Assembly: GCA_027459645.1 (NCBI GenBank)
Contig: DAIDHQ010000030.1
Location: 186,001-250,000, forward strand
DNA length: 64,000 nucleotides
From: Vulcanimicrobiota bacterium
GTDB taxonomy: Bacteria > Vulcanimicrobiota > Vulcanimicrobiia > Vulcanimicrobiales > Vulcanimicrobiaceae
Reading direction: 5' to 3'
Position 1 is the first letter of the stretch. Each line of letters starts with the position of its first letter. The notes beneath the pieces were generated by a model that was not told where the DNA came from, made no database searches, and was given only the letters and a program-made list of their open reading frames with translations. A program made the position numbers and the translations under genes. Shown here one piece after another: positions 2,491 through 39,253 of the stretch.

Positions 2491-3516
2491 CTACTCGCCA
2501 GGCGTGAGCACCATGCGAAAGCGGGCTTTGCCGCTCATCATCTTTTCGTACGCCTCGGCCGCCCGTTCGAGCGGCATCGTTTCGATTTCCGGCCGAACGC
2601 CCGTCAAGACGCTAAAGCGAAGCGTGTCTTCGGAATCGACGTTCGTGCCCGACGGCCACGCCTTTACCGAGTGGCGTCCGCCGATCATCTGGGCCGTCTC
2701 GAGGGGCAGCGGCTCCATCGATGCGCCCACGATAAGAACCTGACCGTCGATCGCGAGCGCCTGCATGAGGGGCTGGATCGCTTTGGCGTCGGTTACGGTG
2801 GAAAGCACGAGCTTCGCGCCGCCGAGTTTGTTGAGTTCGGCAGCCAGGTCGTCGCGCGTGCTATCGAGATAGCTTGCGGCACCCAGCTTTTTCGCGTGCT
2901 CGGCTTTCTCCGCGCCGCGTGCCACGGCAACGACGTGGAATCCCATCTTCGCGGCATACTGCACGGCGAGATGGCCGAGTCCACCGACGCCGAGCACGAC
3001 GACGACGTCGCCCGGCCTCGCAACGCTGTGCCGAAGCGAATTAAATGTGGTCACGCCGGCGCACATCAGCGGCGCCGCATCTTGAAACGAGAGACCTTCC
3101 GGTATGCGCGCGAGAGCGACCGCCGGAACGTTTACGTAATTCGCATATCCGCCGTCGTACGCCATGCCGGGAACTTGAAGGTTGCGGCAGGTAATGAAGT
3201 CGCCTCGCCGGCAGCGGTCGCAATGCCCGCAGTGTCCTCCATGCCAGCCGACGCCGACGCGATCGCCGACGTTCCATCCTACGACGTTCTCACCGAGCGC
3301 ATCGATCGTGCCGGCAATCTCGTGCCCTGGTGCGCGCGGATAGGTGATGCCCGGAAAGGCGTTGTGAACCGTGAAGGCGTCGCTGTGACAGATCCCGCTT
3401 GCGCGAACGCGGATTCGCACCTGACCCGGCGCGGGGTCGGGAAAATCGACCGTGACGATCTCGAGAGCCGCCGCATCGGCCGTGGGAACGCGAGCCATCG
3501 TTACTTTGGTACTCAT
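2491..3516 (-). CDS. Zinc-dependent alcohol dehydrogenase (MDR family)
   Basis: GICHSDAFT...GHEIAGTIDALG...GHCGHCDRCRRGDFITC (structural Zn Cys), GVGGLGHLAVQYA Rossmann motif. Confidence 0.92.
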   Translation of the reverse strand: MSTKVTMARVPTADAAALEIVTVDFPDPAPGQVRIRVRASGICHSDAFTVHNAFPGITYPRAPGHEIAGTIDALGENVVGWNVGDRVGVGWHGGHCGHCDRCRRGDFITCRNLQVPGMAYDGGYANYVNVPAVALARIPEGLSFQDAAPLMCAGVTTFNSLRHSVARPGDVVVVLGVGGLGHLAVQYAAKMGFHVVAVARGAEKAEHAKKLGAASYLDSTRDDLAAELNKLGGAKLVLSTVTDAKAIQPLMQALAIDGQVLIVGASMEPLPLETAQMIGGRHSVKAWPSGTNVDSEDTLRFSVLTGVRPEIETMPLERAAEAYEKMMSGKARFRMVLTPGE

Positions 3517-24720: not shown

Positions 24721-26391
24721 GTGAACGTTCTCGGTATCAACGCAGTTTTTCATGACAGCAGTGCGACGCTCGTTCGCGACGGTGAGATCGTCGCTGCTGC
24801 GGAAGAAGAACGTTTTACGCGCCGCAAACATGCTAAGCCGTGCGTACCGTTTAGCGCCTGGGAGCTTCCCGTGCAATCCGCCCGCTGGGCGCTTGAGTTC
24901 GCGGGTCTTTCGCCCGAAGACGTCGATGCGGTCGCCTACTCGTACGATCCGGATCTCGCGCCGGGCGATCACGCTACGGACGTGACCCAAGATGCATGGG
25001 AGCCTTTGCGGACGCTCTACGCGCGTCGCTTTCCGCTTTTTCTCAAGACGGCGCTTCCGGGAATCGAAGGGGCACGCGTCGAGTTCGTGCCGCACCACGT
25101 CGCTCACGCGGCTTCGGCATATCTTGCCGCTCCATTCGAACGATGTGCGGTGCTCGTCCTCGACGGGCGCGGTGAATCCGCATCGGGACTGCTCGGCGTC
25201 GCGCGCGGGGGCGACTTGGAAATGCTCGCCTCGGCATCGTTGCCGCATTCGCTCGGCTTCGTTTATGAGGAACTCACCGAGCACCTCGGGTTTCATCGCT
25301 CGTCGGATGAGTACAAGGTCATGGGCTTGGCGGGATACGGAAAGCCTCGTTACATCGAACGCTTTCGCGAGATCGTGCGCGTGGAAGGGCCGCAGTTCTT
25401 TGTGGACGGACTCGATTATCGGCAGTTCGTTGCACCACGCCGCGACGGTGAAGCGTTCTCGTCGGAACATGCCGACCTGGCATGCAGCGTGCAGCAGCGC
25501 TTGGAAGAGGTCGTTCTCGAGCTCGCGCGCTGGTTGCACGCGCAGACGGGCGAGCGCAACATCGCAATGGCCGGCGGCGTGGCGCTCAATTGCGTGGCCA
25601 ACGCAAGGCTTGCGGCAGAAGGACCGTTCGAGCGCGTCTGGGTGCAGCCGGCCGCCGGAGATGCGGGGACGTCGCTCGGCGCGGCGCTCTTTGTCGCTCG
25701 TGCCGACGGCGATCGCGTGCAGCCGATGCGCAGCGCCGCGCTCGGCCGTCAATGGGACGACGATGCGATCGAGCGGTGGTTGCAAACCGCGGGCATTGCC
25801 TACGAACGCTCGAGCGATATCGCGAAGCTCGTCGCGCAAACGATTGCCGACGACGGCATCGTGGCCTGGTTTCAGGGGCGCAGCGAGTTTGGGCCGCGGG
25901 CGCTCGGGCACCGCAGCTTGCTCGCCAACCCGCGTTACGCGCGAAATCTCGAACGGCTCAACGACGTCAAAGGGCGCGAACAGTTTCGGCCCGTCGCACC
26001 CATGGTGCTCGAGGAACGCGCCGGCGAGATCTTTATCGGAGCGTTGCCGAGCCCGTTCATGCTCTTCACGCATCGGGTTCGAGAGGAATGGAAAGAGCGC
26101 ATTGCGGCAGCAGTCCACGTCGACGGAAGCGCTCGGATACAGACGGTGAATCGCGAACGCGAGCCTCTGGTCGCCCGCATGCTCGACGAGGTGGACCGGC
26201 TGACGGGGACGCCCGTCGTCATTAACACGAGTTTGAATACCGCCGGGCGTCCGATGGTCGACGACGTTCGCGACGCTCTCGAATGCTTCGGTTCCGCGCC
26301 GATCGACCTGCTTGCCATCGGTTCGTTCGCGATTCGGCGTTGGAACGCGTTTGCATCGCGCGCGGAGCGCACTATGGTCGCGGCGCGATGA
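24721..26391 (+). CDS. Carbamoyltransferase (NodU/CmcH family)
   Basis: VNVLGINAVFHDSSATLVRDGEIVAAAEEERFTRRKH...NIAMAGGVALNCVANARL...GRSEFGPRALGHRSLLANPR...TPVVINTSLNTAGRPMV; GTG start. Confidence 0.95.
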   Translation: MNVLGINAVFHDSSATLVRDGEIVAAAEEERFTRRKHAKPCVPFSAWELPVQSARWALEFAGLSPEDVDAVAYSYDPDLAPGDHATDVTQDAWEPLRTLYARRFPLFLKTALPGIEGARVEFVPHHVAHAASAYLAAPFERCAVLVLDGRGESASGLLGVARGGDLEMLASASLPHSLGFVYEELTEHLGFHRSSDEYKVMGLAGYGKPRYIERFREIVRVEGPQFFVDGLDYRQFVAPRRDGEAFSSEHADLACSVQQRLEEVVLELARWLHAQTGERNIAMAGGVALNCVANARLAAEGPFERVWVQPAAGDAGTSLGAALFVARADGDRVQPMRSAALGRQWDDDAIERWLQTAGIAYERSSDIAKLVAQTIADDGIVAWFQGRSEFGPRALGHRSLLANPRYARNLERLNDVKGREQFRPVAPMVLEERAGEIFIGALPSPFMLFTHRVREEWKERIAAAVHVDGSARIQTVNREREPLVARMLDEVDRLTGTPVVINTSLNTAGRPMVDDVRDALECFGSAPIDLLAIGSFAIRRWNAFASRAERTMVAAR

Positions 26392-37762: not shown

Positions 37763-38407
37763 ATGACCGAATACGAACAGGATGTCGACGCTTCCGTCGA
37801 CGTCGAATCCGACGAACTCCACGACGCCGTCGCCGAACCGGCCGAGTCCGAACGTCCCGCGGCCAAAGCCAAGGACAACCGCAACTGGTTCGTGATCCAC
37901 ACGTATTCCGGTTACGAAAACAAGGTCAAGGCGAATCTCGAGCGTCGCATCCATTCGATGGGCATGCAGGACAAAATTTTCCGCGTGCTCGTGCCGATGG
38001 AAGACGAAGTCGAATTCAAAGACGGCAAGCGGAAGATCACGCCGAAGAAAGTTTTCCCCGGCTACGTTCTGGTCGAGATGATCATGGACGACCAGTCCTG
38101 GTACGTCGTGCGCAACACGCAAGGCGTCACCGGATTCGTCGGCAGCCCAGGCCCCGGTGAAAAACCGGTGCCGCTGCAAGATAAAGAAGTCAAGACGATT
38201 CTCAAGCAGATGGGCATCGAGGCTCCCAAGCTCAAGATCGATTTCCGCAAGGGCGACCGCGTCAAGGTTACCTCGGGCCCGTTCTTCGACTTCACCGGTG
38301 TCGTCGACGAAATTCAGCCCGAGAAGGAGCGCTTGCGCGCCCTCATCTCGATCTTCGGCCGCGAAACGCCTGTCGAGTTGGAGTTCTTCCAAGTGGAGAA
38401 AGTGTAA
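37763..38407 (+). CDS. nusG: Transcription termination/antitermination protein NusG
   Basis: NWFVIHTYSGYENKVKANLERRI...KKVFPGYVLVEMIMDDQSWYVVRNTQGVTGFVG...GDRVKVTSGPFFDFTGVVDEI. Confidence 0.98.
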   Translation: MTEYEQDVDASVDVESDELHDAVAEPAESERPAAKAKDNRNWFVIHTYSGYENKVKANLERRIHSMGMQDKIFRVLVPMEDEVEFKDGKRKITPKKVFPGYVLVEMIMDDQSWYVVRNTQGVTGFVGSPGPGEKPVPLQDKEVKTILKQMGIEAPKLKIDFRKGDRVKVTSGPFFDFTGVVDEIQPEKERLRALISIFGRETPVELEFFQVEKV

Positions 38408-38412
38408 CGCAG

Positions 38413-38775
38413 GCATCCTGACGCTGGGCGTCGTGCCGGCGCGGCTCTGAACGAGCTGCGGAGCCAGGATGGCGAGAGCAGCGAGGAAGTGCAGCAGGAG
38501 CGATTCCACGATGGAATCGCGAGGAGCGGCGCGCAGGCACGATGGCCAGCGTTGGAGGCCGGAATTGCGCGAACGTAGCGCGATAGGGTAGTATCTAACG
38601 GTTTCTTGCGGGAGCGACCCCGGCTCGCAAGATTTATGAGGGGAAGGCTTGCTTCGCTGTCGCGAAGCGCGCCGCAGACGAGAAGCCTCGCGACGAGCGC
38701 CGGAGCCAGGATTGGCGAGAGGCGCGAGCGCGGGAACAGGAGCGCGACACGACGTCGCGCGACGAGTGTCTTCGA
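38413..38775 (+). other. Structured, partly duplicated nusG-rplK intergenic region
   Basis: GGAGCCAGGAT(T)GGCGAGAG at 38460 and 38702, each followed by CAGGAGCG and a hairpin with different stem sequence; further stems CGCTGG/CCAGCG + TCGTGCC/GGCACGA and AGGCTT/AAGCCT. Confidence 0.6.
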
Positions 38776-38827
38776 GTCGCGGTGCGCGTGCGAACAGCAG
38801 CAAAACCGTACACGAAGAGGACACATC

Positions 38828-39253
38828 ATGGCCAAGAAGGTCGTCGGAAAAATCGGGCTGCAACTGCCCGCCGGCAAAGCGACCCCGGCTCCGCCGGTCG
38901 GTCCCGCGCTCGGACCGTACTCCCTGAATATCATGGACTTCTGCAAGCAGTACAACGAACGTACGCAATCGCAGGCGGGCATGATCATTCCGGTCGAGAT
39001 CACCGTATTCGAAGATCGCACGTTTACGTTTATCACGAAGACGCCGCCGGCGTCGTTCCTGATCAAACAGGCGCTGAAGCTCGAGTCCGGATCGAAAGAA
39101 CCCAATCGCAACAAAGTCGGCAAACTGACGAACGCGCAACTGGAAGAGATCGCGAAGGTGAAGATGCCGGACATCAACGCCAACGACATCGATGCAGCGA
39201 AGAAGATCATCGCCGGCACCGCTCGTTCGATGGGCGTGGAGGTGGAAGCCTAA
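38828..39253 (+). CDS. rplK: 50S ribosomal protein L11
   Basis: [46 protein letters not shown]. Confidence 0.98.

Follow-up and report, generated by a model that had tools for sequence, protein, structure and literature searches.

The two structures in the nusG–rplK spacer of the genome studied are copies of a previously uncatalogued, dispersed folding repeat of the Eremiobacterota, and the existence of this repeat family is well supported. Its members are dispersed insertions with a conserved structure, they show an asymmetry between strands and lie at the 3' ends of genes, their core is uncoupled from their stem, and one copy carries an arm derived from its host. The repeat is proposed here to be a non-autonomous mobile structured element whose stem, at many loci, would be built locally from the flanking DNA by fold-back synthesis, a reading for which the case is evenly balanced.

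The nusG–rplK locus

The window, i.e. the whole stretch of DNA analysed, comprises 64,000 nt, and the features of its nusG–rplK region are listed in Table 1. In the following, G000 denotes the genome of the window, G001 a genome of the same genus, and G034 and G074 genomes of the same family. Copy 1 starts 5 nt past the nusG stop codon. An earlier note on this DNA had reported a motif duplicated at 38460 and 38702, together with two hairpins and their enclosing stems. The motif is present at both positions, the hairpins and stems are as described, and each copy folds better than 200 of 200 dinucleotide shuffles (z of -6.2 for copy 1 and -4.0 for copy 2). A competing pairing of CATCCTG (38414) with CAGGATG (38465), also proposed, is not conserved because CATCCTG sits in a copy-specific arm; its partner CAGGATG forms the apical loop that is conserved in the core.

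Table 1. Features of the nusG–rplK region, with positions in the window.
Feature	Position	Strand	Basis or remark
nusG	37763..38407	+	upstream neighbour; Pfam PF02357
Copy 1 including outer stem	38412..38560	+	fold; R1 match 38435-38538, 112 bits
Copy 1, left arm of outer stem P1 (copy-specific sequence)	38412..38443	+	fold, arm test
Copy 1, hairpin P2 (conserved internal loop, apical loop CAGGATG)	38455..38482	+	alignment, fold
Copy 1, hairpin P3 (freely covarying stem, loop CACGATG)	38500..38520	+	covariation, fold
Copy 1, right arm of outer stem P1	38528..38560	+	fold, arm test
nusG–rplK leader hairpin, outside the repeat	38600..38643	+	kept in relatives without the repeat
Copy 2 including outer stem	38656..38798	+	fold; R1 match 38677-38778, 78.5 bits
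Copy 2, hairpin P2	38697..38725	+	fold
Copy 2, hairpin P3 (GCGCGAC/GTCGCGC)	38742..38760	+	fold
rplK	38828..39253	+	downstream neighbour; Pfam PF00298 and PF03946

Among the 30 nusG loci compared, only that of G000 contains the element; the corresponding spacer of G001 is 87 nt long and free of it. In several relatives, this spacer measures 87–122 nt and carries a conserved hairpin, the loop of which (CCCC) is able to pair with a downstream GGGG; a Shine-Dalgarno-like AAGGAG is also present. In family f2, loop and partner have changed together to CCACC/GGTGG, and the genomes of family f3 have almost no spacer at all. The window has the same leader hairpin, with CCCC at 38618–38621 and GGGG at 38640–38643, located between the two insertions. 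The second of these, copy 2, is found within or directly after this leader, just downstream of GGGG. The leader hairpin has no match in Rfam. Judged by this comparison of spacers, it is the hairpin, rather than the repeat, that is the candidate autoregulatory site for a ribosomal protein and probably the ancestral nusG–rplK leader. The two copies are expected to flank the real leader as passengers without regulating it.

Distribution of the repeat family

A DNA search with the spacer against its own genome gave 21 matches across many contigs. The covariance model R1, trained on 16 own-genome copies that include copy 1 and exclude copy 2, found 28 matches in G000. It also recognised the element in 56 of the 98 relatives searched; these 56 belong to the same class as the source, in three families, and the model gave 0 matches in those of the 98 that represent other classes of the phylum. 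The mobile noncoding repeat, one of the options in the earlier note, is supported by the many unrelated loci, the patchy presence and the empty orthologous sites. That note had held that occurrence at many unrelated loci as a plain repeat would speak against its interpretation; the many loci are real, but the repeat is not a plain one, as it shows strong covariation.

An exact-pattern scan of GTDB genomes combined with R1 returned hits, most of which belong to records with the title Candidatus Eremiobacterota or unnamed bacterium. Three further metagenome-assembled genomes (MAGs), with 28, 11 and 10 R1 matches, have the same core and a short outer stem in common; going by the record titles, one is a Planctomycetota and two are Candidatus Kuenenia. 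Weak pattern hits in records titled Saccharibacteria, Pseudohongiella, Rhodospirillaceae, Acetobacteraceae, Oligoflexia, Herpetosiphon and Terriglobia lack the fold of the element and are regarded as chance. The viral contigs searched with the exact pattern contained no match, and a phage origin was rejected on this ground. The covariance models of Rfam (release 15) did not match the repeat; their only hits were tRNAs and one chance match, which fell far short of its gathering score. The whole genomes searched are MAG-type assemblies, in which contig ends often host copies.

A tree of the cores displays genome-specific bursts and several subfamilies in each genome, with orthologous cores within a genus mostly grouped together. 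Four own-genome loci represent subfamilies of the same plan (L443:9202-9362, L456:9621-9783, L459:6095-6270 and L471:18333-18501), that is, a long unique stem and a loop of ~110 nt with two CAGGAKG-type hairpins. In family f3 (L345, L347, L351, L356 and other loci of G045), the core forms a domain within a dispersed element of ~410 nt, which has shared terminal inverted repeats CTGAAGGGGCCGA and an additional conserved domain. Another abundant repeat, GTCATCCTGAGC...GTCGAAGGAC, is in many cases the immediate neighbour of the element in G067 and G000 (L437:1282-1317, L464:8154-8450, L151, L152 and others) and is absent from the window. Apart from the repeat family and the GTCATCCTGAGC repeat, long palindromes are rare in the 1.25 Mb of the own genome that were read.

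Structure, covariation and strand asymmetry

The unit, ~150–165 nt in total, consists of a conserved three-way-junction core of ~90 nt closed by a stem of ~33 bp. From the outside, the long stem P1 is followed by P2 and then P3. P2 has a conserved internal loop (GRA / GRGA) and the apical loop CAGGATG, and P3 has a freely covarying stem and the apical loop CASGATG, so that the two core arms end in near-identical loops (CAGGATG / CACGATG). Among the junction letters, A and GYAG are nearly invariant and CGTC is mostly kept.

The replacement of stems with retention of pairing, first seen between the two spacer copies, turned out to be general. Across 114 copies, 94.7% of the pair cells are standard, compared with 63.8% in shuffles, and every one of the 31 modelled pairs has two-sided changes. 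These figures come from an alignment fitted to the model and therefore lean towards it; when the pairing is slid by 1–3 columns as a control, paired cells drop to 37–50%. Outside the model, the left and right flanks of 102 of 112 copies pair with a score of 8 or more (99th percentile of the null, 8.5). The commonest extension beyond the model is 22–24 nt, which gives the stem its length of ~33 bp.

In the arms outside the model, for which the alignment gave no wobble bonus, mismatches are asymmetric, with 161 G.T against 53 A.C (~3:1; 66 elements against 13). The ratio is 31:5 for elements in sense orientation to both neighbours (>E>) and 67:22 for those antisense to both (<E<). Since the bias has the same sign in both gene directions, the folded + strand itself is favoured independently of the transcription of the neighbours, which was rejected as the cause of the asymmetry. 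What is kept thus seems to be a single folded + strand, either RNA or single-stranded DNA. A strand-biased mutation process could conceivably be the source of the G.T excess.

Genomic location and insertion sites

Neighbouring genes were called with a simple caller based on codon usage, and spacers of 60 nt or more from the own genome served as background. The 99 placed copies comprise 30 in convergent, 66 in co-directional and 3 in divergent spacers, against 50, 255 and 127 of the 432 background spacers. Divergent spacers are avoided (p 6e-10) and convergent ones enriched (p 1.5e-5). In f3, 14 of the 16 copies with two called neighbours lie between convergent genes. Antisense copies outnumber sense copies 44 to 22 in co-directional spacers. 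The insertions are mostly found directly after stop codons, the distance from the end of the model to the neighbouring stop codon often being 17–60 nt.

The element is present in the own genome and absent from G001 at L009, L012, L017, L018 and nusG–rplK, and two element sites of G067 are empty in its congener G013. At the inspected orthologous sites of G001 and G013, both arms and the core are missing. These comparisons show the copies to be insertions; at single sites, precise loss is also possible. The inspected empty sites have no long palindrome, for which reason insertion into existing palindromes was rejected there. No clear target duplication was seen at the inspected ends of elements.

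The infB–rbfA spacer (genes named from sequence) contains an element in five genera and in both orientations (L084, L164, L181, L097 and L113), which suggests repeated insertion into the same spacer. No recurrent partner protein accompanies the copies; the families that recur beside them are housekeeping ones such as infB, rbfA and ATP synthase genes, likewise named from sequence. Neither a PF01797 scan of the genomes nor the neighbourhoods of the copies revealed a mobilising enzyme. The csrA gene lies 1.6 kb from an element copy (L270 and L021; G000:C12:23054-23209 and 24853-24970), to which no significance is attached.

Uncoupling of core and stem

In pairs of copies from the same genome with cores that are 93–97% identical, the similarity of the arms is mostly at background (11–15; null median, 12). 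Most orthologous pairs have an arm similarity of 29–66. For L151/L152, L011/L010 and L148/L155, core identity amounts to 96.5%, 95.5% and 94.2%, and the arms are no more alike than those of unrelated copies. L151 and L152 diverge abruptly and at the same level on both arms. Arms that travel with the core also occur, namely in the recent copies of G037 and in three copies of G067, which share their arms.

Orthologous stems of G034 and G081 were read at four alignable loci (116 stem pairs), leaving out L173/L183, which is mis-paired, and L170/L188, which is shifted by an indel. They contain 17 two-sided changes that keep the pairing, 11 one-sided changes in which a G.U preserves it and about 4 changes that disrupt it. 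As most changes keep the pairing, the stems persist with compensation. One change affects a block of 4 bp on both arms. The site L166/L184 of the same two genomes is too rearranged to be informative. At the orthologous site of L165 (G034) and L177 (G074), both at 2940-3160, the arms are conserved with compensatory differences and P3 is identical, P2 has been replaced, and the core is inverted.

A host-derived arm and the proposed mechanism

The left arm of L018 consists of codons 1–9 of a gene for a phosphatase of the HAD family (Pfam). The SVKGVLFD encoded by the arm aligns with KVRGVLLD in the element-free orthologue of G001 (71% identity overall). The right arm, CGGTGAGCGTCAAGGGCGTCC, repeats this stretch of the phosphatase gene in inverted form, with 20 of 21 nt in agreement and an additional outer part that overlaps another repeat. 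With a left arm of host coding sequence and a right arm that is its inverse, the alignment demonstrates for L018 that one arm belongs to the host and the other is its copy. The right arm of L017 resembles its empty site at a nominal, uncorrected p of 0.013. At the other empty sites, the alignment test mostly gave no significant match of arm to host, the intergenic DNA at the distance of a genus being too diverged to decide. L168 was not counted as a second arm of host coding sequence, as its predicted start codon is doubtful.

Under the proposed mechanism, the copied part would be the core of ~90 nt, one strand of which forms the three-way junction. It would insert into convergent or co-directional spacers, in most cases immediately behind a stop codon. 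The outer stem of ~33 bp would, at many loci, form locally instead of being inherited with the core. One arm would be pre-existing flanking DNA and the other its inverted copy, arising at the core hairpin through fold-back (template-switch) synthesis. Compensatory change would then keep the stem paired because the folded single strand (RNA or single-stranded DNA) matters. Most likely, it is in this folded form that the strand is recognised when the element is mobilised; at transcribed loci, it would sit in the 3' ends of mRNAs.

Fold-back template switching is described to make the arms of inverted repeats match and to invert spacers (PMC8604942, PMC7202029), and both arm matching and spacer inversion are seen here. 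The published process is a mutation of existing short palindromes, not a source of stems for a repeat family. Template switching would explain the locus-specific stems, the block change on both arms, the inversion of the core and L018. Documented for that one copy, it may be the general maker of the stems at the others as well. It does not explain the movement of the core.

Alternative explanations and known elements

A simpler rival, possible if rather improbable, is a MITE-like unit in which arm, core and arm are moved as a whole by a putative transposase, the arms drifting in a compensatory manner and the cores being homogenised by gene conversion. As a joint part of this somewhat doubtful scenario, conversion would stop where homology ends, i.e. 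at the stem. The element is indeed similar to MITEs such as ERIC, NEMIS and Nezha, which are non-coding, 70–300 bp long, have inverted ends and a strong fold, and lie beside genes (PMC3733652). The f3 version looks MITE-like, and terminal inverted repeats are shared among the copies of G037 and G045 but not in most f1 copies; the arms common to recent G037 and some G067 copies, the absence of both arms from empty sites, and the orthologous L165/L177, which combine the same arms with a different P2 and core orientation, fit as well. However, the terminal repeats of MITEs are common to all copies, unlike most arms of the element, for which neither target duplication nor a partner transposase was seen. 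Furthermore, gene conversion over repeats of ~90 nt is expected to be inefficient, the orthologous cores within a genus mostly group together, and an arm made of host coding sequence, as in L018, is at odds with a unit moved whole.

The copies might alternatively be domesticated RNAs at 3' ends, selected locus by locus as bidirectional terminators, protectors of mRNA 3' ends or decoys for a protein such as CsrA. Their placement behind stop codons and between convergent genes, the compensatory evolution at orthologous sites, the presence of csrA and one loop that is mostly AGGA would suit such a role. The TwoAYGGAY RNA motif and CsrA-binding hairpins likewise have two hairpins with similar loops containing GGA. 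Unlike these, the element has no match in Rfam, and its P3 loop is without GGA in about half of the copies, so that the A-N-GGA-N of a CsrA decoy is not generally exposed. The patchy presence with empty sites in the same genus and the preference for the + strand even when antisense to both neighbours also make this role unlikely. An autoregulatory leader of the L11–L1 operon, which the earlier note had considered, would agree with the sense-strand position between nusG and rplK. Such a leader should be conserved in the corresponding spacer of relatives, but the element is missing from that of all relatives examined, is found at many unrelated genes and flanks a different, conserved leader. This function is therefore scarcely conceivable at the locus and, given the other relatives' spacers, refuted as the general role of the element. 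Very unlikely, too, is a REP family mobilised by a RAYT transposase. A REP is a single hairpin of 20–40 bp whose sequence is specific to its family, and REPs of the GTAG type are associated with RAYT genes (PMC3733652). The element resembles REPs and BIMEs in being dispersed, non-coding and folding, in its location near gene 3' ends, in convergent or co-directional spacers and rarely in divergent ones, and in its clusters of opposite orientation; some REP families also sit inside longer palindromes (PMC3733652). Letters similar to CGTC and GTAG occur at the foot of P3. These tag-like letters lie within the junction and helices instead of forming the unpaired end of a 20–40 bp palindrome, and the unit, a multi-branched core of ~90 nt inside a stem of ~33 bp that differs between loci, is far larger than a REP. 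The Y1 transposase domain of RAYT proteins (Y1_Tnp, PF01797), the gene for which would be flanked by the repeat, is absent from G000 and most element-rich genomes, leaving mobilisation by RAYT unsupported.

Implications

With this analysis, a poorly studied phylum, of which Vulcanimicrobium alpinum has been cultivated (PMC9758169), gains a structured repeat family that covaries strongly, had not been catalogued before and is linked to other MAGs, one of them titled Planctomycetota. The results also expose the actual candidate for the nusG–rplK leader beside the repeat copies and are a caution that a long, covarying hairpin between the genes of an operon may have been inserted there. Tentatively, the repeat may represent a class of mobile elements whose core inserts behind stop codons and which then build their own unique stem by inverted duplication of the host flank, with the folded single strand under selection. 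If true, this would be a mode of integration and maintenance not known from REPs, MITEs or relatives of IS200/IS605. With near-identical cores in unrelated stems and an arm derived from a gene, it is now testable whether a repeat can make its own stem from host DNA.
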